This document shows positions 2,937-16,032 of a stretch of 20,783 bases of DNA, one piece after another. The position numbers and the translations under genes are program-made. The notes under the pieces are model-generated. The model was not told the DNA's origin. It saw only the letters and a program-made list of their open reading frames with translations, and searched no databases. This stretch comes from a virus. The stretch's first letter is position 1, and each line of letters starts with the position of its first letter. Where the stretch lies: the IMG/VR virus record IMGVR_UViG_3300028025_002793, positions 1-20,783 of that record; one strand, given 5' to 3'.

Positions 2937-3173
2937 TCAGAGCTCCACCTGTTTCCGGATCACGTCTAGCATAACCTGTGCCTTGCGTTGCTCCAAGCGC
3001 GAAGATTGCAGCAAGTCTTCTAGCTGCTCACGAAACCCCACAAGCTCGGGATCATCGCCAATAGCTTCGATGGCAAGCCTGAAGTTATCGATGTTGACCT
3101 GATACTCGGTCACTTCGCGAATGCGCCCATCAAGGGACGACGTTAAAAGTTCAAGACGATAGTCAGGATTCAT
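2937..3173 (-). CDS. Small helical (coiled-coil) phage protein, function unknown
   Basis: This 78-residue protein is predicted by eye to be almost entirely alpha-helical, with two heptad-rich stretches (REVTEYQVNIDNFRLAIEAI and QLEDLLQSSRLEQRKAQVML) around a short DDPEL turn. There are no cysteines and no membrane segment. The ATG overlaps the stop of the propeller gene by four bases (ATGA), so the two are probably translated together. The fibre chaperone-like gene begins one base later. Context suggests a tail-fibre assembly or trimerisation helper, but I recognise no family with a known role. Confidence 0.72.
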   Translation of the reverse strand: MNPDYRLELLTSSLDGRIREVTEYQVNIDNFRLAIEAIGDDPELVGFREQLEDLLQSSRLEQRKAQVMLDVIRKQVEL

Positions 3174-4195
3174 CCTAGAGCTCCAAAGCTTACTGATGTT
3201 GGGGAACCAGAAGGGAGTGTTGCCGGGTTAGAGTACTGCGACCCATACGCCCCGCCGGACCAGCGGAAGGCTTTTATGGCCCCCGTAGCGGCACCAGCAA
3301 AAGCTATGGCGTCGTTGTTTACACTAAAGGCAACATCATTCTGCTGACTCGTAAGAGAGCTTGTTGATACTCGAGTACCAAAACCGCCCGCATAGGACCA
3401 TGGATATACGTAGTTACCCGGGTTCGTGGTAGTGCTCATGGCAACGTAGTCGGAGTTACTTGTGACCGAGATACCCGTCCCATTGGCATTCGGCAAACTA
3501 CTCGGTGCCGCATACTTTGTGCCAAAACCAGATCCACTCCACTGCCATGCCGAGATGTATGGGGAGAGTGTATGTACAGCAATAACCGCATTGCCATCCC
3601 GGGTAAACTTCACCCCCGTACCTGCCCCAGAGAAAAGGCTGGTTGGGTTTGCGAACTTAGAACCAAAACTTGAGCCAGACCATGCCCATGCAGCAAGGAA
3701 GTTGGAGCTGTCCGCAAGGGCTATAGCGTTGTTTTTAGGGTGGAAGTCGGCCTGATATGTTCCACTAACAAGTGATGCGGGAGAAGTAACTCTTGTTCCA
3801 AATCCAGAAGAGGACCACGGGTAGACCGAGATGTACGGGCTACCATCATGGCAAATTACGACGTAGTCTGAGCCGGGAGAAAAAGAAACACGTTTCCCAG
3901 ACCCTCCCGGAAGGCTAGCCGGATTAGAATACCTTGTGCCAAAACCACTGGCAGACCACGGGTAGGCCGCAACATAGGGGCTACTATTCATGGTTACGGC
4001 AACATAATATCCGCTGGGAGAAAAAGCTACTCCATTTACCGTGGATGTTGGAGTCGTTGCTGGGTCAGAGTACTTTGTCCCAAACCCTGTCAAAGAGTCC
4101 CACGGGTAAACAAAAAGGTACGAACTGGTGTCAGACCCGACGGCAAGGAATTGCCGCCGTCCAGATGCCGCAGAAAGAAGTTTTGTGGCCTGCAT
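3170..4195 (-). CDS. Seven-bladed beta-propeller virion protein (probable distal tail / receptor-binding protein)
   Basis: The protein has 341 residues from the ATG at 4195, whose A is shared with the TAA stop of the preceding fibre gene (TAATG). A longer frame running back to 4417 would only read antisense-like, Cys/His/Arg-rich sequence through the upstream gene and is rejected. Nearly the whole protein consists of seven repeats of about 45 residues. Their pattern is SPYhxxYPWSxxGFGTxYxNPASLPxGxGxxVxFSPxxxYVAV, where h is hydrophobic. The N-terminal strand (RRQFLAVGSDTSS) can close the ring with the last, shorter repeat, as in WD40-type propellers. No catalytic motif is visible. Position after a tail-fibre gene and before a fibre chaperone-like gene suggests a host-surface or glycan-binding role. 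The fold is well supported; the ligand is unknown. Confidence 0.88.
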   Translation of the reverse strand: MQATKLLSAASGRRQFLAVGSDTSSYLFVYPWDSLTGFGTKYSDPATTPTSTVNGVAFSPSGYYVAVTMNSSPYVAAYPWSASGFGTRYSNPASLPGGSGKRVSFSPGSDYVVICHDGSPYISVYPWSSSGFGTRVTSPASLVSGTYQADFHPKNNAIALADSSNFLAAWAWSGSSFGSKFANPTSLFSGAGTGVKFTRDGNAVIAVHTLSPYISAWQWSGSGFGTKYAAPSSLPNANGTGISVTSNSDYVAMSTTTNPGNYVYPWSYAGGFGTRVSTSSLTSQQNDVAFSVNNDAIAFAGAATGAIKAFRWSGGAYGSQYSNPATLPSGSPTSVSFGALG

Positions 4196-5085
4196 TATGC
4201 GTCTCCGACCCGTGCACCATACAGCACAGACGCAACTCTCCACAACACGATTACCGTGTACCCCGAGGTGTTCAACGTGGGGGCAGAACCACCGTTCGTC
4301 TTCCAAGTCATGGTGGGCCACGTAACCGTATATGCCGTGCCGTCGTCGATCATAAGCGTCATGCTCTCGCCCGCGTTGAGAGAGCTTGTGACGGTGGAGT
4401 TTGCACTTAGCGTCCACGTTTGGATGGTACCGTTCGAGGGGTCAAGTGCTGGGGTGGTGCCAGAGATGGCGTAAACGGTCTCGGTGATCGATCCACCAAA
4501 CGTTGTATCCCCGGTCGTTGTCAGAGTGGTGAAGCCGCCCGCAGCCTTGGTCGTACCGCCGATAGCTACGTTATTGATCGTCCCGCTGCTTATCGTTGCA
4601 GAGGTCAAAGTGGACGTGTCTAACGTGACGCCGCTGATGGCTCCGCCCGTGATCCGTACCGAGGACATCGAGAAGTCTGCCGTCAGATCGGTAACCGCGG
4701 CTCCGGATCCGGCCCCATCGCAATAAACGATCTTGGTGTCCCCATCCAAGATGCTTACAGTGCTTCCGCTACCCTGAGAGAGGATGACGGTCTGCCCCGA
4801 CGAGTTCTTTACAAAGTAAAGATGGTCAGCCGTATTCGGAGAGATGGTGACCGTGTTGGTGCCGCTAGGCGTACCGCCAAGTACGAGCACCTTATACTGG
4901 CCCTCGGACAACGTGCCGTTGAACGTGGACAGCGTATAGGTCGTTCCGGTTAGGGTTATAGCCCCTACGCCATTGGTCAACCTGTCGATGATCTCCAAGT
5001 TGTTGTTGGTGGTATCGCCCCACGTACCGGACTGCTCACCATCGGTGATGAGCTCGAGGCCACTGTTTGAATACGTGCTAGCCAT
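4195..5085 (-). CDS. Tail fibre protein
   Basis: This 296-residue protein has an opening, YSNSGLELITDGEQSGTWGD then NNNLEIIDRL, typical of tail-fibre proteins of aquatic phages and probably the virion-attachment region. Beta-rich repeats follow. Residues about 160-200 contain the common fibre signature SGTINNVAIGGTTKAAGGF, TLTTTGDTTFGG. The C-terminal domain (about 205-296) has WTLSANSTVTSSLNAGESMT, YTVTWPTMTWK and a closing VIVLWRVASVLYGARVGDA, a pattern I know from phage fibre or tail-tip ends. The start has AAGGAG five bases upstream, overlapping the stop of the previous gene. It precedes the beta-propeller gene with a TAATG overlap, so fibre and propeller may be made in matched amounts. 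Confidence 0.88.
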   Translation of the reverse strand: MASTYSNSGLELITDGEQSGTWGDTTNNNLEIIDRLTNGVGAITLTGTTYTLSTFNGTLSEGQYKVLVLGGTPSGTNTVTISPNTADHLYFVKNSSGQTVILSQGSGSTVSILDGDTKIVYCDGAGSGAAVTDLTADFSMSSVRITGGAISGVTLDTSTLTSATISSGTINNVAIGGTTKAAGGFTTLTTTGDTTFGGSITETVYAISGTTPALDPSNGTIQTWTLSANSTVTSSLNAGESMTLMIDDGTAYTVTWPTMTWKTNGGSAPTLNTSGYTVIVLWRVASVLYGARVGDA

Positions 5086-5094
5086 GTCGTCTCC

Positions 5095-6900
5095 TTACGC
5101 TCCGATAACCACCCACACCGATTGCGGGTCGGGTGTGATAGGTGTCCATGGATTTATAGCATCTGGAACGGTGTTCGTCCATGTATTGCCGGGGTCTGCA
5201 GTAATAGGAGCCCATCCCGGATCCCCACTTGGTGACACGGAACTCCACGTCGTTCCGGGGTCTGGAATAATATCCAGCCATCCAACGACAACATCCCCGA
5301 CATAGCCCGTGGCAAAGAAGCCCGTAAGGAAAACCTGAGCGTTTCCATAAGCCGTAACCGAGCCCACATCGGCAGTAGCTGAAAGGCCCGTGACCAGAAC
5401 AGGGGTGACTAGGCTGACACTCGCCGTACCGACCTCACCAGAGGCCGATACGCCCGTTAGATATACTGTTTGCCCAAGATCTACGCTGACGGTTCCAACG
5501 CTAGCGGTGGCCGATACCCCAGTAACAAAGACCTCGGTAACTTGGACAGGGACTGTAGCGGTACCAACGGCCCCGGTAGCCGCCGAGCCTACTGCGGCAA
5601 CCTGTACATCCCCGGGGACTACGGCAAGGCCGACTTGTCCCGTGGCGGAAACGCCCGTAACGGAAACGATAGCTTGCGCGACAACGTCAACGGATCCCAC
5701 GTCGGCAGTGGCCGATAGACCCGTAGCTGAAACAATTACTCCCGCACGGACATCGACGGAACCGACACTAGCGGTAGCTGCGGAACCCGTGGTAGAAACA
5801 ATAGCTCCAGAACCCGCTCCTACTGAGCCTACGTCCCCCGTAGCGGACAACCCTGTAGCAGAAACGTTAGCCTTGGCAACAACAGTAACGGATCCAACAT
5901 CACCTGTGGCGGATAGGCCTGTAACAGAAGCTGAAACACTTTGAGGAACAACAACGGAACCGACACTCGCGGTAGCGCTAACGCCTGTGACGGATACAGA
6001 TATGCCACCCGCCGTAGACACATAGCGAATAACGATAACGCCGTCAGAACCGTTCTGACTCTGGACGTTAAAACCAAGAGCATCCGACGCCGCGGCACCA
6101 CCAGATCCAGCGCCATATGTACCTGCTACGTAACCAACTACGTTTGCCGAAGGAGTTACTACAGCTCTACCTCGAGAGCCGCCGCCAGAACCGTAGCTAC
6201 TTCCAAGTTCTGTGCCGTTACCGCCATCTCCGCCATTGGGGGATGTGCTACTACCAGCAATACCCCCATAGCTAGCATCACCAGCTCCACCATTGGTTGA
6301 GTCTGGTTTGGTTACAGTACTTACGCCGTTTGCGCCAATACCCCACCGACCTGCGGCACCACCACCACCCGTTCCGACAGTAGCAAAAGAGGCACTTGAA
6401 CCACCTCCTGAGCCCCCAGAAAACAGCACAGAGCCAACGCCCGAGGCAGCGTCTCCGCCCGCGGCTCCGCTAATAACTCCACCAGATATTGCAGCTACGC
6501 CGCCCGCACCGCCCTTAGCAAGGATGGTGCTAGTGTTGATAAAATATGTATCGCCGCCTGTGTTCCCCGACACTGCTCCGGTAGAGGTGCCCCGTGAAAC
6601 CGCAGCCCCGCCTGAACCAACAGAGTACGATACGGAGCTAGAGGGCGTCAGTGAAAGATTCGCTATGCGAGAATAGGCCCCGGCACCGCCGCCGCCAGCT
6701 ACGGCCACTGCTCCAAAGGCGGTATTAAACGCAGCGCCACCCGAGCCACCTGCACCAATAACTTCTATGGTATTGTTGGAACTATTCCAATCGCTAGGAA
6801 CCGTCCACGTGGTGCCAGAGGTGAGGTAGATAGTGGTGACAGTGGCTGCTACCCCATCATCCGCTAGGGGCGCAGCGGCTAAGGGGTAAAAGCCAAGCAT
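5095..6900 (-). CDS. Glycine-rich tail adhesin with tandem 22-residue repeats
   Basis: This 601-residue protein starts with a short conserved-looking peptide (MLGFYPLAAAPLADDG). Residues 20-295 form a glycine-rich domain: WTVPSDWNSSNNTIEVIGAG then many GGxGG runs, ending GSDGVIVIRY. This resembles the glycine-rich domains of phage adhesins. Residues about 300-540 hold about eleven repeats of roughly 22 residues with the core TGxSATxxVGSV. The last 55 residues carry a Trp/Pro motif in several copies (DPGTTW, DPGWAP, DPGNTW, NPWTP, DPQSVW). There is no enzyme motif. Length and composition fit an elongated fibre that presents variable glycine-rich surfaces to the host. GGAG lies nine bases before the ATG, just after a TGATAG double stop of the previous gene. 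Confidence 0.85.
   Translation of the reverse strand: MLGFYPLAAAPLADDGVAATVTTIYLTSGTTWTVPSDWNSSNNTIEVIGAGGSGGAAFNTAFGAVAVAGGGGAGAYSRIANLSLTPSSSVSYSVGSGGAAVSRGTSTGAVSGNTGGDTYFINTSTILAKGGAGGVAAISGGVISGAAGGDAASGVGSVLFSGGSGGGSSASFATVGTGGGGAAGRWGIGANGVSTVTKPDSTNGGAGDASYGGIAGSSTSPNGGDGGNGTELGSSYGSGGGSRGRAVVTPSANVVGYVAGTYGAGSGGAAASDALGFNVQSQNGSDGVIVIRYVSTAGGISVSVTGVSATASVGSVVVPQSVSASVTGLSATGDVGSVTVVAKANVSATGLSATGDVGSVGAGSGAIVSTTGSAATASVGSVDVRAGVIVSATGLSATADVGSVDVVAQAIVSVTGVSATGQVGLAVVPGDVQVAAVGSAATGAVGTATVPVQVTEVFVTGVSATASVGTVSVDLGQTVYLTGVSASGEVGTASVSLVTPVLVTGLSATADVGSVTAYGNAQVFLTGFFATGYVGDVVVGWLDIIPDPGTTWSSVSPSGDPGWAPITADPGNTWTNTVPDAINPWTPITPDPQSVWVVIGA
5281..6003 (-). repeat. About eleven tandem degenerate ~66-bp units encoding TGxSATxxVGSV repeats
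   Basis: This is an internal coding repeat of the glycine-rich adhesin, residues about 300-540. Units are close to 22 codons. Each has a hydrophobic lead (VSVTGVSAT, VLVTGLSAT, VYLTGVSAS), a small-residue turn and VGSV or VGTA. DNA copies are diverged but keep the blocks for TGxSAT and VGSV. Unit count is by eye, and the first and last units are the least regular. Confidence 0.85.
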
Positions 6901-9277: not shown

Positions 9278-9579
9278 ATCGTGACCACCGTTACTTCCCC
9301 TACGCTACCCTTGGCTTGCGGAAAGGGTCCTAGGTTTGGGTTTTCTACAAGCTGGATGCCGACGTATACATCCAGCGCTTCGGGCTCATCTGGGCGGGGG
9401 TTACGCAAAGCCTGTGGATCTGGGTAAGCCTTTGGCGGAAACAACTGCGGATGCTTCGGATCAAACTCGTCCCGCCCTACAAGCTGCCCCGTCCACTCCT
9501 TCCGCATGTCGCGCAAGCGGTAACGGAAACCCGAGCGGTCAGAAATGCCCCAAGCCTTTTTTCCGCTAGCGTAAGACAT
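9274..9579 (-). CDS. Conserved small virion-region protein, cysteine-free relative of zinc-ribbon-like phage proteins
   Basis: The protein has 101 residues: AWGISDRSGFRYRLRDMRKE, WTGQLVGRDEF, PKHPQLFPPKAYPDPQALRN. The ISDRSGFRY...WTG...EFxPKHPQ layout is like a small phage protein that, as I recall, often carries CxxC pairs at the two knuckles. Here the sequence has no cysteine at all, so it cannot bind zinc in that way. The C-terminus (ALDVYVGIQLVENP, VGEVTVVTI) is beta-rich. The ATG shares the A of the preceding TAA (TAATG). It lies between the two adaptor-like genes, which suggests a neck or assembly role; function is unknown. Confidence 0.75.
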   Translation of the reverse strand: MSYASGKKAWGISDRSGFRYRLRDMRKEWTGQLVGRDEFDPKHPQLFPPKAYPDPQALRNPRPDEPEALDVYVGIQLVENPNLGPFPQAKGSVGEVTVVTI

Positions 9580-10244
9580 TAGAACCTCAAGTAGGATACA
9601 TCGGGCTGCAGCTTCAACGGAACGCGGTCTTCGTCTTCCTCGGCAGCACGGGTGAACTCTTCGTCATAGATAGCCTTGAGCATTGCCATACGCTCAGGAG
9701 CCCGCTTCATGGCAAGGTAGTACGCGAGGCCCGCCACCATGCAAGGATAGAAGCGCCACGGAAGATCGGTCGTATTCGTCATCGTGCCAGCGTCTTCAAT
9801 GCGCCGGACGTAGTAATAGACAATCTGGTCCGTAGAGTTCTCCGGCACCTGCCAGAGGTTTATCTGCGGAGCAATCTTGCGGTCGTAGTAAAACTGCGAA
9901 GGACGGCCCTGCGTAGTCTTGTTCGGTAAAAGAAAAAAGTCGCCGCGACTGATCCGTTCGACCTCGTAATCCGTACCACTACGACGCAGCACCATCTCCA
10001 AGATGTCCGCGTGGTCTTCCGATACAGAATAGTTGCTGGTGCCTTGGGTCACGGTGATCGTAGCTTGGGCCACGGTCCACAGGTTCAGGCCGCGGTTCGC
10101 CCACTCTGCAAACATGAGGTTGAGACTGCGACGCGCTGTCCGCGCATCGTAGCCAGTGCGAACCTCAAGGCCGCACCGCTCGAAGGACTCTTCGATCAGC
10201 TCGCCGATGTCGAGGTTGAACGTGCGGGTTCCGGATGTGGTCAC
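9579..10244 (-). CDS. Head-tail connector / adaptor protein candidate
   Basis: The protein has 221 residues and starts at GTG (10244), supported by AGAGG five bases upstream and a four-base GTGA overlap with the preceding stop. The sequence has an N-terminal helical part (LDIGELIEESFERCGLEVRT, RTARRSLNLMFAEWANRGLN), then strands (YSVSEDHADILEMVLRRSGT; INLWQVPENSTDQIVYYYV). A helical end follows (PWRFYPCMVAGLAYYLAMKR, MAMLKAIYDEEFTRAAEEDE, VSYLRF). This matches the adaptor-type proteins that bind the portal in podovirus-like particles, P22 gp4-like in layout. It is followed by a second adaptor-like gene. The assignment rests on remembered family pattern and position. Confidence 0.78.
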   Translation of the reverse strand: MTTSGTRTFNLDIGELIEESFERCGLEVRTGYDARTARRSLNLMFAEWANRGLNLWTVAQATITVTQGTSNYSVSEDHADILEMVLRRSGTDYEVERISRGDFFLLPNKTTQGRPSQFYYDRKIAPQINLWQVPENSTDQIVYYYVRRIEDAGTMTNTTDLPWRFYPCMVAGLAYYLAMKRAPERMAMLKAIYDEEFTRAAEEDEDRVPLKLQPDVSYLRF

Positions 10245-10393
10245 TTCGGCCTCTTTGCTGTCTTGGTGGACTGCCGGAACGCCTTAGCGGTAGGTGCGCC
10301 CTTGGTCCCCGGCTTACGCATCTTCTCGTTAGACCCTGCGGCAATGCGCTTCCGCTTGGCATCTATGTTAGCATATAAACCGGGCTTTGCCAT
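10241..10393 (-). CDS. Small basic phage protein (MAKPGLYANI family), function unknown
   Basis: I place the start at the ATG 10393-10391, preceded by GGAGG seven bases upstream, giving 50 residues. They open with MAKPGLYANIDAKRKRIAAG and continue KMRKPGTKGAPTAKAFRQ. This is a very basic small protein seen, from memory, in many aquatic phages, where it usually begins at this same MAK. A longer frame from the ATG at 10444 adds 17 residues and overlaps the upstream stop by four bases (ATGA). It lacks a well-spaced ribosome site but remains possible. Charge suggests nucleic-acid or assembly contact; nothing is proven. Confidence 0.72.
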   Translation of the reverse strand: MAKPGLYANIDAKRKRIAAGSNEKMRKPGTKGAPTAKAFRQSTKTAKRPK

Positions 10394-10440
10394 CCTCTTC
10401 CCTCCGGGTTCAGTAACCTGCTTGGTCATACTTCCACGGT

Positions 10441-11478
10441 TCATGGGGCCATACTCTCCTCTGCTATCGCGTTGTTCATAAGGTTTTTCATCACCTCCGC
10501 GTATGCCCTTCGATAGTTTGGATCATCTGGGTAGATGCCGGACTCAGCCAAAATGTCCTCCACGTATTGCCCAGCAAAGCCCTCATTCTTCCATGCCGCA
10601 TTGTTCTCGAACAGCTTTGCCATCGCGGGCATGTCTTTGTAGCGCTCATCTTCCGGCATGTTTATGCGTGACTGCGTAAGAAAGGCCGTCATCTCGGTGG
10701 GACGGGCAAAGTACTGCTGTAGCTCTGGGCTATCTCTAAAGTCTGTTGGGTATGCCCCGTACTTGTCTGTTCCCTCAAAAGTGTCGATTCCATGGCCCGT
10801 TTCATGAAGAATTGCGCCCAGCATGGTTTTTTGAAAGTTGTCTTCAAACCCAGTTGGCATAGGACCAAAATCTCGATAGGGTTTATCGGGTACGCTTCCG
10901 TGAGGCGTCAGGTACATCGCGCCCGTAGGACTTAGAGAAACTTTTTTTCGCATCTCGTTTATTTCTGAGGGAAACGCCTGTGTTTTCCCAAGAGCGGGGT
11001 CTTCAAGAAAGGGCCCCTCGAACGGACCCGTATAGTCACGATCAACAAGAGCCTCTAGGATTGACTGATGCGGCCCGTACCCAGCTATTGACGCGTTATA
11101 AAAACTCTGTGAAGGAAGAAGCATTACAGGCATATCTTTTAGTTCTGGGTAGTCTTGGAACAACAAGTCGTGTTGCAATATTTCGCTCAAGGGCACTGTA
11201 GTGGCCCGTAGGTCGGATGCAGGATCTCCTTCCATGCGGGGTCCGGGCCTACGCAGCTTTGCGTAATAGTCCGTTATGTTTTCAATGCCCAACAAACGTG
11301 CTTCGTTATCCGGCTGCTCAAAACGAGGCATCCCAGAAGGGTCCATGAATATGCGATCAGCGGGGACATCCGCCGCTGTCTTTGCCTTCGGCCCAGCAAA
11401 ATACGCTTGCTGAAGATACTCCAAGCCCTTGGGGTTAACCGTGGGCTTGGACTTCCTCGCTGACGCACCCGTGCACAT
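10441..11478 (-). CDS. HExxH zincin-like metallopeptidase candidate in the structural operon
   Basis: The key feature of this 345-residue protein is ILHETGHGID, with HETGH at residues 225-229. It is the zincin zinc-binding pattern, two His ligands and a general-base Glu, set in a hydrophobic helix as expected. A Glu further on (E262 in RPTEMTAFL) could be the third ligand, as in gluzincin-like enzymes. The approximately 220 residues before it contain no domain I recognise; 275-345 are mostly helical. There is no signal peptide or membrane segment. The start lies one base after the preceding stop (TGAGATG). Because it is made with head and neck genes, it may process a virion protein or be packaged and injected. 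No substrate can be named. The motif is certain; enzymatic activity is inference. Confidence 0.75.
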   Translation of the reverse strand: MCTGASARKSKPTVNPKGLEYLQQAYFAGPKAKTAADVPADRIFMDPSGMPRFEQPDNEARLLGIENITDYYAKLRRPGPRMEGDPASDLRATTVPLSEILQHDLLFQDYPELKDMPVMLLPSQSFYNASIAGYGPHQSILEALVDRDYTGPFEGPFLEDPALGKTQAFPSEINEMRKKVSLSPTGAMYLTPHGSVPDKPYRDFGPMPTGFEDNFQKTMLGAILHETGHGIDTFEGTDKYGAYPTDFRDSPELQQYFARPTEMTAFLTQSRINMPEDERYKDMPAMAKLFENNAAWKNEGFAGQYVEDILAESGIYPDDPNYRRAYAEVMKNLMNNAIAEESMAP

Positions 11479-11479
11479 C

Positions 11480-11731
11480 TCAGCAGTTCCACGCTTTAAG
11501 GGACAAGGCCTTCCGAGTCGGACGGCCCTTCTCGTCTTTCATCGGTCCCGGCATCCCGCTCATACGAGCGCAGAAGCTTTTGCGACGCTTCGCATCTTTT
11601 TCCGTCTTCGGCTTAGGGGCCGGGGGTTTCAGGTTCATGCCTTGGGCTTTCGCCGAAGCTCGGCCCTTGGCATTTAACCCGCCCTTTGGATCCTTGCCTT
11701 CTTTCCGCTGCCACGCCGGAGACTTTGCCAT
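11480..11731 (-). CDS. Small basic conserved phage protein (DUF6321-like)
   Basis: This 83-residue, strongly basic protein contains AKSPAWQRKEGKDPKGGLNA, KGRASAKAQG, RRKSFCARMSGMPGPMKDEK and GRPTRKALSLKAWNC. The blocks SPAWQRKEGKxPxGGLNAKG and SFCARMSGMxGPMKDxxGRP are, from memory, a widely shared small phage protein that I link to DUF6321, with no known role. Two cysteines (SFCARM and the last residue) are present. Basic charge and head-region context suggest DNA or capsid contact. The ribosome site is modest (AAGG ten bases upstream). It ends one base before the HExxH gene. Confidence 0.8.
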   Translation of the reverse strand: MAKSPAWQRKEGKDPKGGLNAKGRASAKAQGMNLKPPAPKPKTEKDAKRRKSFCARMSGMPGPMKDEKGRPTRKALSLKAWNC

Positions 11732-12657: not shown

Positions 12658-13569
12658 TTATGCGCCAGTGGTACCGTACACGCAGCGCGGGTCGCTGAAG
12701 CCGAACGAGTAACGCTCACGCGCCTTGTAGCGCATGTTGCCCGTGTCGAAATCAGCTTCCATGCCCGTGTTCAGCGCAGTGCGCTGGAAGTGCAGGAAGC
12801 CACGCGGTGCGTCGGTTTTGATGAAGTAGCCATCGGGGTCGGTCAAGAAGTCGTTGACGACGTAACCTTCCGGCAGCAAGCCCATCGAACGCATTGCGTT
12901 GACGTCGTTGTCGGCAGTGCCCACACGCAGGTTCGAAACCATCAAACGTTCAGCCACAAACTGCAACTGACGGGGAATGACCAGCTTCAAGCCGCGCAGT
13001 GCAACTTTCAGACCGCGTTCGTCAACGAACCCAGCGATGTTGATCAGAGCGTCTTCGAGCGAAGTTTCGTTCAGGTCAGCATCAGTGGTCGGGCGGTTCG
13101 CGAAAGTCGAACCGTTAACCAAGGGGTGGTTGGTAGCGCAGAGAGCCACGCCGTCGCCGCCAGCCGAAGCACCCGCCGTGAAGGCGTTGTTCAGAATGGA
13201 AGCGGCTTTCACCTGCTTGGTGTGAGCCATCGAGCGAGCGAGGGCACGGGTGTAGCGACTGCCGAGGCGGTCGTACAGGTTGTCCTCGATAGCTTCCTCG
13301 GTGATCGAGAAGGCCAGTGCGATGGTTTCGTGGTTGTACCGAGCGGTGTAGGCTTCCTGTGCATCGTCATACGAGATGCCCGAACCTTCCGATTTGGTCG
13401 GTGCTGCGCCGAAGCCGGACAGCATGACTTCCTCCTCGAATGCACGATCCGAGGACTCGGTGGTGAAGATCTCGGCATGTTGGTTTTCATACCGAGTGTA
13501 TTCCATGCCGAACAGAGCATTGAGACCGGGCTCAAGCTCTTTCGCAAGTTGTGCGCGCGAAATTGCCAT
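12658..13569 (-). CDS. Major capsid protein (HK97-fold, Mu gpT-like type)
   Basis: The protein has 303 residues: MAISRAQLAKELEPGLNALF, TRYENQHAEIFTTESSDRAF, then AEEYTARYNHET-like lead-in (QEAYTARYNHETIALAFSIT), EEAIEDNLYDRLGSRYTRAL, MAHTKQVKAASILNNAFTAG. Later come an ATNHPLVNG loop and LKVALRGLKLVIPRQLQFVA. The end has FLTDPDGYFIKTDAPRGFLH and RYKARERYSFGFSDPRCVYG. This is the layout of phage major head proteins of the gpT-like group. The start has AAGGAG eight bases upstream, overlapping the stop of the previous gene. It follows the scaffold and decoration candidates and is followed by a strong terminator, as expected for a highly made protein. I see no large N-terminal delta domain to be cleaved. 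Confidence 0.9.
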   Translation of the reverse strand: MAISRAQLAKELEPGLNALFGMEYTRYENQHAEIFTTESSDRAFEEEVMLSGFGAAPTKSEGSGISYDDAQEAYTARYNHETIALAFSITEEAIEDNLYDRLGSRYTRALARSMAHTKQVKAASILNNAFTAGASAGGDGVALCATNHPLVNGSTFANRPTTDADLNETSLEDALINIAGFVDERGLKVALRGLKLVIPRQLQFVAERLMVSNLRVGTADNDVNAMRSMGLLPEGYVVNDFLTDPDGYFIKTDAPRGFLHFQRTALNTGMEADFDTGNMRYKARERYSFGFSDPRCVYGTTGA

Positions 13570-15540: not shown

Positions 15541-16032
15541 TCAAACGTGTTGAATATCGTCGGGCTCAAGGATCGTAGCGATAACCTCATCATCGTTGAT
15601 GATGCGGACCTCGCCTCCGTCGATCTTGAACCGTGAACCAGCGTATCGCCCAATGCAGACCCACTGCCCTTCACGGCACCATGGTTCAGCATTCTCCCCA
15701 AACTTGTTCGGGTCGCAGTAGGCTAGCGGACCTAGCCGCATCACGTATGCAACGACTGTCGCCAAAGCCTCGCGTTCCCGGACTTGGTCAGGGACGATCA
15801 AACCGCCGTCTGTCTTGGCCTTGCCCTTGTACGGCATGACAAGAATACGCCACCCCGTAGGCTGGGGGAGACGATCAAGTAGGGGCTTTTCAACAAGGGT
15901 TGGATCTAGGACCCGGGTGTCCGGCTCGACATATGCCGAACCAAGGTTGACGGGGTTTGGAGGTGGCGCATCGGACTTCTGGGCCTCGATGCGTTTAACG
16001 ATATGATCCGGAAGATAGAGTTTCTTCGACAT
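15541..16032 (-). CDS. GroES-like co-chaperonin (Cpn10 family), viral
   Basis: The protein has 163 residues, longer than the usual ~95. Residues 1-55 are an added N-terminal part (YLPDHIVKRIEAQKSDAPPP and a Pro-rich linker). The Cpn10 barrel follows: PTGWRILVMPYKGKAKTDGG, the GGLIVP mobile-loop motif at 76-81 that would bind GroEL, then ALATVVAYVMRLGPLAY. A metal-site-like insert with CDPNKF...PWCREG comes next, and the end is GQWVCIGRYAGSRFKIDGGE, VRIINDDEVIATI. It probably caps the host GroEL so that a phage protein, most likely the capsid protein, can fold, as gp31 of T4 does. Its start lies 38 bases inside the preceding gene, with only a weak ribosome site. Confidence 0.88.
   Translation of the reverse strand: MSKKLYLPDHIVKRIEAQKSDAPPPNPVNLGSAYVEPDTRVLDPTLVEKPLLDRLPQPTGWRILVMPYKGKAKTDGGLIVPDQVREREALATVVAYVMRLGPLAYCDPNKFGENAEPWCREGQWVCIGRYAGSRFKIDGGEVRIINDDEVIATILEPDDIQHV

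Follow-up and report, generated by a model that had tools for sequence, protein, structure and literature searches.

A stand-alone LPD23-zincin homologue in the neck slot of an HTVC023P-related phage is most likely a virion-carried peptidase

The window, that is the whole 20,783-nucleotide stretch analysed here, is a 20.8-kb IMG/VR fragment, and it encodes a 345-aa protein that we interpret as a stand-alone LPD23-zincin homologue, an optional neck-slot gene product and most likely (probability roughly 0.58) a peptidase carried in the virion and acting early in infection. In the protein, an LPD23-like N-terminal domain precedes a zincin metallopeptidase core, where H225, H229 and E262 would bind zinc and E226 would activate a water molecule. 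It would be a built-in or packaged component of the virion and, early in infection, would cleave a protein, which could be a target in the host or phage cargo packaged alongside. The features of the gene are as follows.

10441..11478, minus strand: stand-alone LPD23-zincin homologue, 345 aa; ORF with an ATG start, assigned by family profile, hhalign and three collinear profile matches.
11113..11406, minus strand: LPD23-like N-terminal block, residues 25-122 (FAGPKAKT ... PRFEQPDNEA ... LQHDLLFQDYPELKDMPV); hhalign E 3e-15, hmmsearch domain 35.8 bits.
10774..10848, minus strand: predicted active-site helix, residues 211-235, with HETGH; AlphaFold2 (57-row alignment), mean pLDDT of ten-residue blocks 76-92 over 211-240.
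10792..10806, minus strand: HETGH, residues 225-229, with H225 and H229 as predicted zinc ligands and E226 as predicted general base; aligned with HExQH of the family.
10693..10695, minus strand: E262, predicted third zinc ligand, in PTEMTA at the family GExEA position; column invariant in the 57-row alignment.

The first-pass annotation had noticed HETGH in a hydrophobic helix and a later E262. Both were confirmed in the translated ORF, and the helix agrees with the predicted helix 211-235, so that the HExxH motif lies in a helix, as in zincins, by both the sequence and the AlphaFold2 model. E262 sits within ARPTEMTAF, aligns with the family Glu and was placed in helix 260-270 of the model. 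When the window protein was shuffled 20,000 times, HExxH arose by chance at a rate of 0.46%, and HExxH followed 20-60 residues on by ExxA in 0.085% of shuffles. Because there are many genes in one window, the motif by itself is suggestive, and homology decides.

The arrangement HExxH..I...EG occurs in phage polyvalent proteins and served as the starting point for a family search. IMG/VR was scanned with a DNA pattern for HExxH[AG]I[HQDE]..EG, which gave at least 80 loci, and nearly all of the loci listed encoded one kind of protein with an H..L...YP.L block, then HExQHxIQ..EG and then Y..LAGE.EAR..Q.R. Eight of nine family members tested exceeded the Pfam cut-off for LPD23, and their zincin parts weakly matched metallopeptidase models. 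A family profile was built from 73 of the at least 80 loci, namely those with a recognisable Glu block, with the window protein left out; 63 of the 73 were within length limits, and 55 of these entered the 57-row alignment. The window protein scored 55.3 bits against the family profile and its close relative 58.2 bits, and the best score among the controls (2,000 shuffles and two reversed sequences) was 9.8 bits. Scored separately, the N-terminal half reached 38.6 bits and the C-terminal half 21.3 bits, and with residues 201-280 masked the protein still scored 36.5 bits. Since the masked protein and the halves still score, the profile match is independent of HExxH. A profile-profile comparison with hhalign gave 98.5% (E 3e-15) over residues 25-122, and a genome search with a 43-row alignment found three collinear pieces in the window (E 1e-11, 0.07 and 0.17, the last two weak alone) in the order LPD23-like N-terminus, HExxH helix and third-ligand Glu segment. 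By our own profile the protein belongs in the LPD23-zincin homology group, collinear over the N-terminal, HExxH and Glu blocks.

Ten columns were invariant in the 57-row alignment (P111, H225, E226, H229, I231, E235, G236, G241, Y256 and E262). All rows except the window protein (P0001) and L003 had been chosen for having both HExxH.I...EG and the Glu block, which makes conservation in these motifs partly circular. Among columns outside the selection criteria, P111 and Y256 were invariant, and E54, D57, Y110 and R271 were conserved at 90% or more. The zinc-peptidase reading had been made dependent on HExxH being conserved among homologues, and HExxH was kept in all four of the homologues found by sequence rather than by motif that were inspected (of 43 matched records). 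In these four, AF_016, H66_0060, UOF81783 and EBPR podovirus 3 gp3, the motif lay inside the matching domain; the GE block of UOF81783 was absent in the alignment. The non-circular evidence for conservation thus consists of the six columns outside the selection criteria and these four unselected homologues.

Searches of Pfam, NCBIfam, PHROGs and PDB sequences with the window protein returned no recognised family. For LPD23 (PF18838) the curated cut-off of 27 bits was not reached, with no Pfam match at E up to 10 and none at E 1 when its own record was searched; MPTase-PolyVal (PF18818) likewise gave no match at E 1 in a search with its own record. Sub-cut-off matches to PF18838 were found in 7 of 14 control genomes, so a weak Pfam match would carry no weight. 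The profile search against large polyvalent phage protein domains that had been proposed at the outset pointed to a related zincin-type peptidase through the custom profile, with the Pfam models silent. In our judgement, divergent homology of the protein to the LPD23-zincin unit, with an intact predicted site, is very probable, and it is likely that the predicted peptidase is active.

An AlphaFold2 model based on the 57-row alignment had a mean pLDDT of 69 and a pTM of 0.71. With two sequences the mean pLDDT was 33 and the model was useless, which shows that the model depends on the alignment. When the model was compared with BFVD, proteins named 'Large polyvalent protein associated domain' were found at ranks 2, 3 and 6 (E 4e-5 to 4e-4), and Foldseek against the PDB gave nothing at E 0.001 or better. 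Among the VIA-align matches were zincin chains with Z from 2.6 to 4.6, namely the DPC repair protease 6mdw (4.6), anthrax lethal factor (3.6) and PPEP-1/Zmp1 (2.6-2.9), but these scores are weak, come with no sequence match and leave the fold alone in common, and an unrelated designed protein scored above every zincin (Z 4.7). The solved-structure matches are consistent with a zincin fold and are no proof of it, as the Foldseek and VIA-align listings leave room for other folds.

The close relatives found in IMG/VR are confined to four contigs (L001-L004), which share one protein sequence 68-69% identical to the window protein, with HETHH in place of HETGH and with E262 kept. A further relative in BFVD, the predicted protein A0A6J5R1A7 of an uncultured Caudovirales phage, is 71% identical to the window protein. 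Comparison of the window gene with the L001-L004 relative by the Nei-Gojobori method gave a dN of 0.21 and a dS of 1.0 (dN/dS about 0.2), indicating purifying selection; conservation inside this branch rests on two distinct close sequences, the window protein and the L001-L004 protein. Searches of the window protein against phages and against plasmids with tblastn, together with genome scans, gave nothing useful. Scans with the pattern HETxHG...RPxE returned 12 and 15 stretches, and the 23 inspected beyond the four known contigs were non-relatives, which were reused as control loci. PDB profile matches to RPA190 (E 0.049) and TTC29 and a match to a microvirus pilot protein (E 0.4) were judged to be due to chance.

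In the window, the terminase, portal, GroES-like co-chaperonin, capsid and two SU10-type adaptors were assigned by profile, and two of these genes frame the slot in which the zincin gene lies.

12658..13569, minus strand: major capsid protein (PF25209, phrog_371).
9579..10244, minus strand: head-tail adaptor 1 (SU10 adaptor; PF24175), the downstream edge of the variable slot.

The nearest named relatives of the capsid are from the Pelagibacter phages HTVC023P (71%) and HTVC027P (67%), DSL-LC04 (69%) and the Roseobacter phages CRP-901/902. The GroES-like co-chaperonin gene (15541-16032) lies between portal and capsid, and a passage of PMC9599517 gives GroES as a core gene of HTVC023P-type phages. 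A 286-aa protein (phrog_28737) encoded between GroES and capsid is, as a guess, the scaffold. Long repetitive ORFs at 3170-6900 probably encode tail or fibre proteins; they include a recurring GFGT/YPW motif and a protein rich in Gly and Ser. The first-pass annotation had seen no classical prohead protease between portal and capsid, and in agreement none of the six genes there matched a protease model in Pfam or PHROGs; the window is a fragment, and a protease may be encoded elsewhere. The window zincin protein itself matched none of the known prohead protease families in Pfam, NCBIfam and PHROGs. The capsid did match 'head and protease' PHROGs, at profile positions 400-643 and 416-583, and we take the matched stretch to be their capsid part.

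The occurrence of the gene was followed in 80 loci with a relative of the capsid, 36 of which span the interval from capsid to adaptor 1. Only one of these 36 close relatives (L001) carried a zincin gene in the slot, and an LPD23-zincin was found in none of the 17 loci that span terminase, portal and capsid, within the stretch covered. Whole records of six named sequenced relatives were searched and all six lacked a zincin match. A solo homologue follows the tail spike in the more distant MW202785.1 (capsid 41.5%), and among 12 hand-picked records 4 matched, those of L003, L174, L176 and L181. L174 and L176 (capsid 68-69%) carry the domain within ORFs of 1,623 and 1,690 residues in the terminase-portal interval; in L135 and L181 it likewise lies between terminase and portal, and in L130 and L156 it adjoins the portal gene. 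In related phages the peptidase is thus either part of a large protein encoded close to the portal gene or, as here, the product of a small neck-slot gene. The slot between capsid and adaptor is variable, and the zincin gene is a late gene that is optional there. A prohead protease should be retained across the capsid lineage; because only 1 of 36 close relatives carries the gene, the zincin is not a required prohead protease. The general role in head maturation that had been suggested for it is not supported by these counts.

Other HExxH-like motifs were seen in the same survey. The phrog_3704 protein has HDKYH in L003 (9522-10208) and HEKYH or HEQYH in L060, L067 and L068, a useful contrast in which HExxH is unconserved. 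Gp28 of HTVC023P (L006:741-1229), encoded upstream of the terminase gene, has HELGH and is another possible zincin, and phage 023Pt_psg01 (L011:3-2261) has a 753-aa ORF with HEAAH directly upstream of the portal gene.

The zincin gene is tightly packed between two small genes.

11480..11731, minus strand: DUF6321 protein, 83 aa, ending 1 nt before the zincin start codon (PF19846, E 1.4e-26).
10241..10444, minus strand: small basic protein, 67 aa (phrog_16028), whose ATG overlaps the zincin stop codon (ATGA); assigned by PHROGs match and junction.

L003 has identical junctions between the DUF6321, zincin and 67-aa protein genes. A DUF6321 relative within 50 bases and a relative of the 67-aa protein within 300 bases of the zincin were found in 4 of the 80 zincin loci listed (L122, L137, L154 and L198), and either neighbour in 0 of 23 control loci, which were fewer and shorter in total (205 vs 747 kb); the association of the two neighbours with zincin genes is suggestive. 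One 141-residue profile, phrog_11180, represents a fusion of DUF6321 and the 67-aa protein, which match it at successive positions. At their C-terminal ends, several long PHROG profiles match DUF6321 as well. We consider it a speculative and rather doubtful idea that DUF6321, the basic protein and the solo LPD23-zincin form a mobile virion-cargo cassette, in which the basic proteins would attach the peptidase to the head or neck, or package it there; ejected first, the peptidase would clear a host defence or unpack co-injected cargo. If true, the cassette would supply in trans the peptidase that is part of giant polyvalent proteins in cis.

The function had been put forward as undescribed, which was too strong, since passages of Iyer et al. 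(PMC5512222) described peptidase domains of polyvalent proteins in 2017. In their account, zinc is held by both His residues of HExxH together with a Glu from a downstream helix, and the roles proposed are that the peptidase processes its own polypeptide, takes part in processing inside the head or cuts host proteins once injected. They also tie such domains to lethal factor by profile search and mention that LPDs occur as solo proteins near structural genes as well. A limited literature search found no paper on LPD23 function. The window protein has the block order of LPD23 (PF18838)-zincins and their R.E..D, H..L...YP.L, HExxH..I...EG and Y....E..A....R blocks, but it is stand-alone, short and under the Pfam cut-off, with PTE for GE, a shorter inter-helix linker, a longer insert before the HExxH helix and extra C-terminal helices. 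With one LPD23-like block and one zincin core in 345 aa, it lacks the several disparate domains in a large polypeptide that define a polyvalent protein. EBPR podovirus 3 gp3 (335 aa) and other short LPD23-zincins are also solo genes with the N-terminal block, HExxH and the GE.. block, but gp3 is about 25% identical and has no adjacent DUF6321 annotated within the stretch examined. H66_0060 of Pseudomonas phage H66 (3,787 aa) contains the LPD23-zincin domain pair (219 bits) in a giant multidomain virion protein. H66_0060 (L248:1542-12905) also has a second HExxH, HEMVH at residue 2493, outside the LPD23-zincin match.

Carriage of the window protein in the virion is modestly favoured, by analogy, because H66_0060 is annotated as a mass-spectrometry-verified virion part, albeit as a giant protein and not in the stand-alone form, and because the gene for AF_016, which has the domain, follows those for putative internal virion proteins and for a structural lysozyme. 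Action in trans is favoured because there are no attached domains for a solo protein to release, and the injected effector suggested in the first-pass annotation is still the best, though putative, reading. It is also conceivable, though unlikely, that these few phages use the protein as an assembly protease specific to their lineage, which would trim a protein of the neck, scaffold or fibre. Its gene does lie between capsid and adaptor genes, and a passage of PMC7824862 proposes that in group 1 jumbo phages a zincin acts in maturation, but the slot contents vary among relatives, and the gene's presence in 1 of 36 relatives with closely similar capsids and 0 of 6 sequenced ones implies that the shared head and neck assemble without the zincin. 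We give similarly little credence to a late accessory enzyme that would stay unpackaged and act on host or defence proteins in the producing cell before lysis. The variable slot hosts accessory genes in relatives, such as PurM in HTVC023P and the phrog_3704 protein in L003, but the large relatives of the domain are encoded with entry and virion proteins and one is recorded in the virion.

Two further explanations concern the site itself. A structural or binding protein that retains the fold without catalysis would account for PTE in place of GE, for the linker shortened to about 25 residues between EG and the third Glu and for G or H where the family has Q in the HExxH motif; it is nevertheless very improbable, as neither distinct sequence has lost either His, the base Glu or the third Glu, and dN/dS is about 0.2. 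That a short motif present in 0.46% of shuffles arose by chance in an unrelated protein is refuted by the family match outside the motif in the masked search (36.5 bits), and this reading retains practically no weight.

At the level of homology the zinc-peptidase reading is right, a role as maturation protease is unlikely, and the family was already known; new here are the divergent solo form and its tightly packed neighbourhood. This removes a wrong lead, as the zincin is not the missing head-maturation protease, and it turns an unannotated gene of a marine phage, from phages related to the widespread HTVC023P type, into a testable peptidase. The metallopeptidase unit exists as a small separate gene, and at 345 aa the solo form is much easier to express than polyvalent proteins of 1,600 to 3,800 aa, so it could help to show what the common, largely untested peptidase domains of polyvalent proteins cut.
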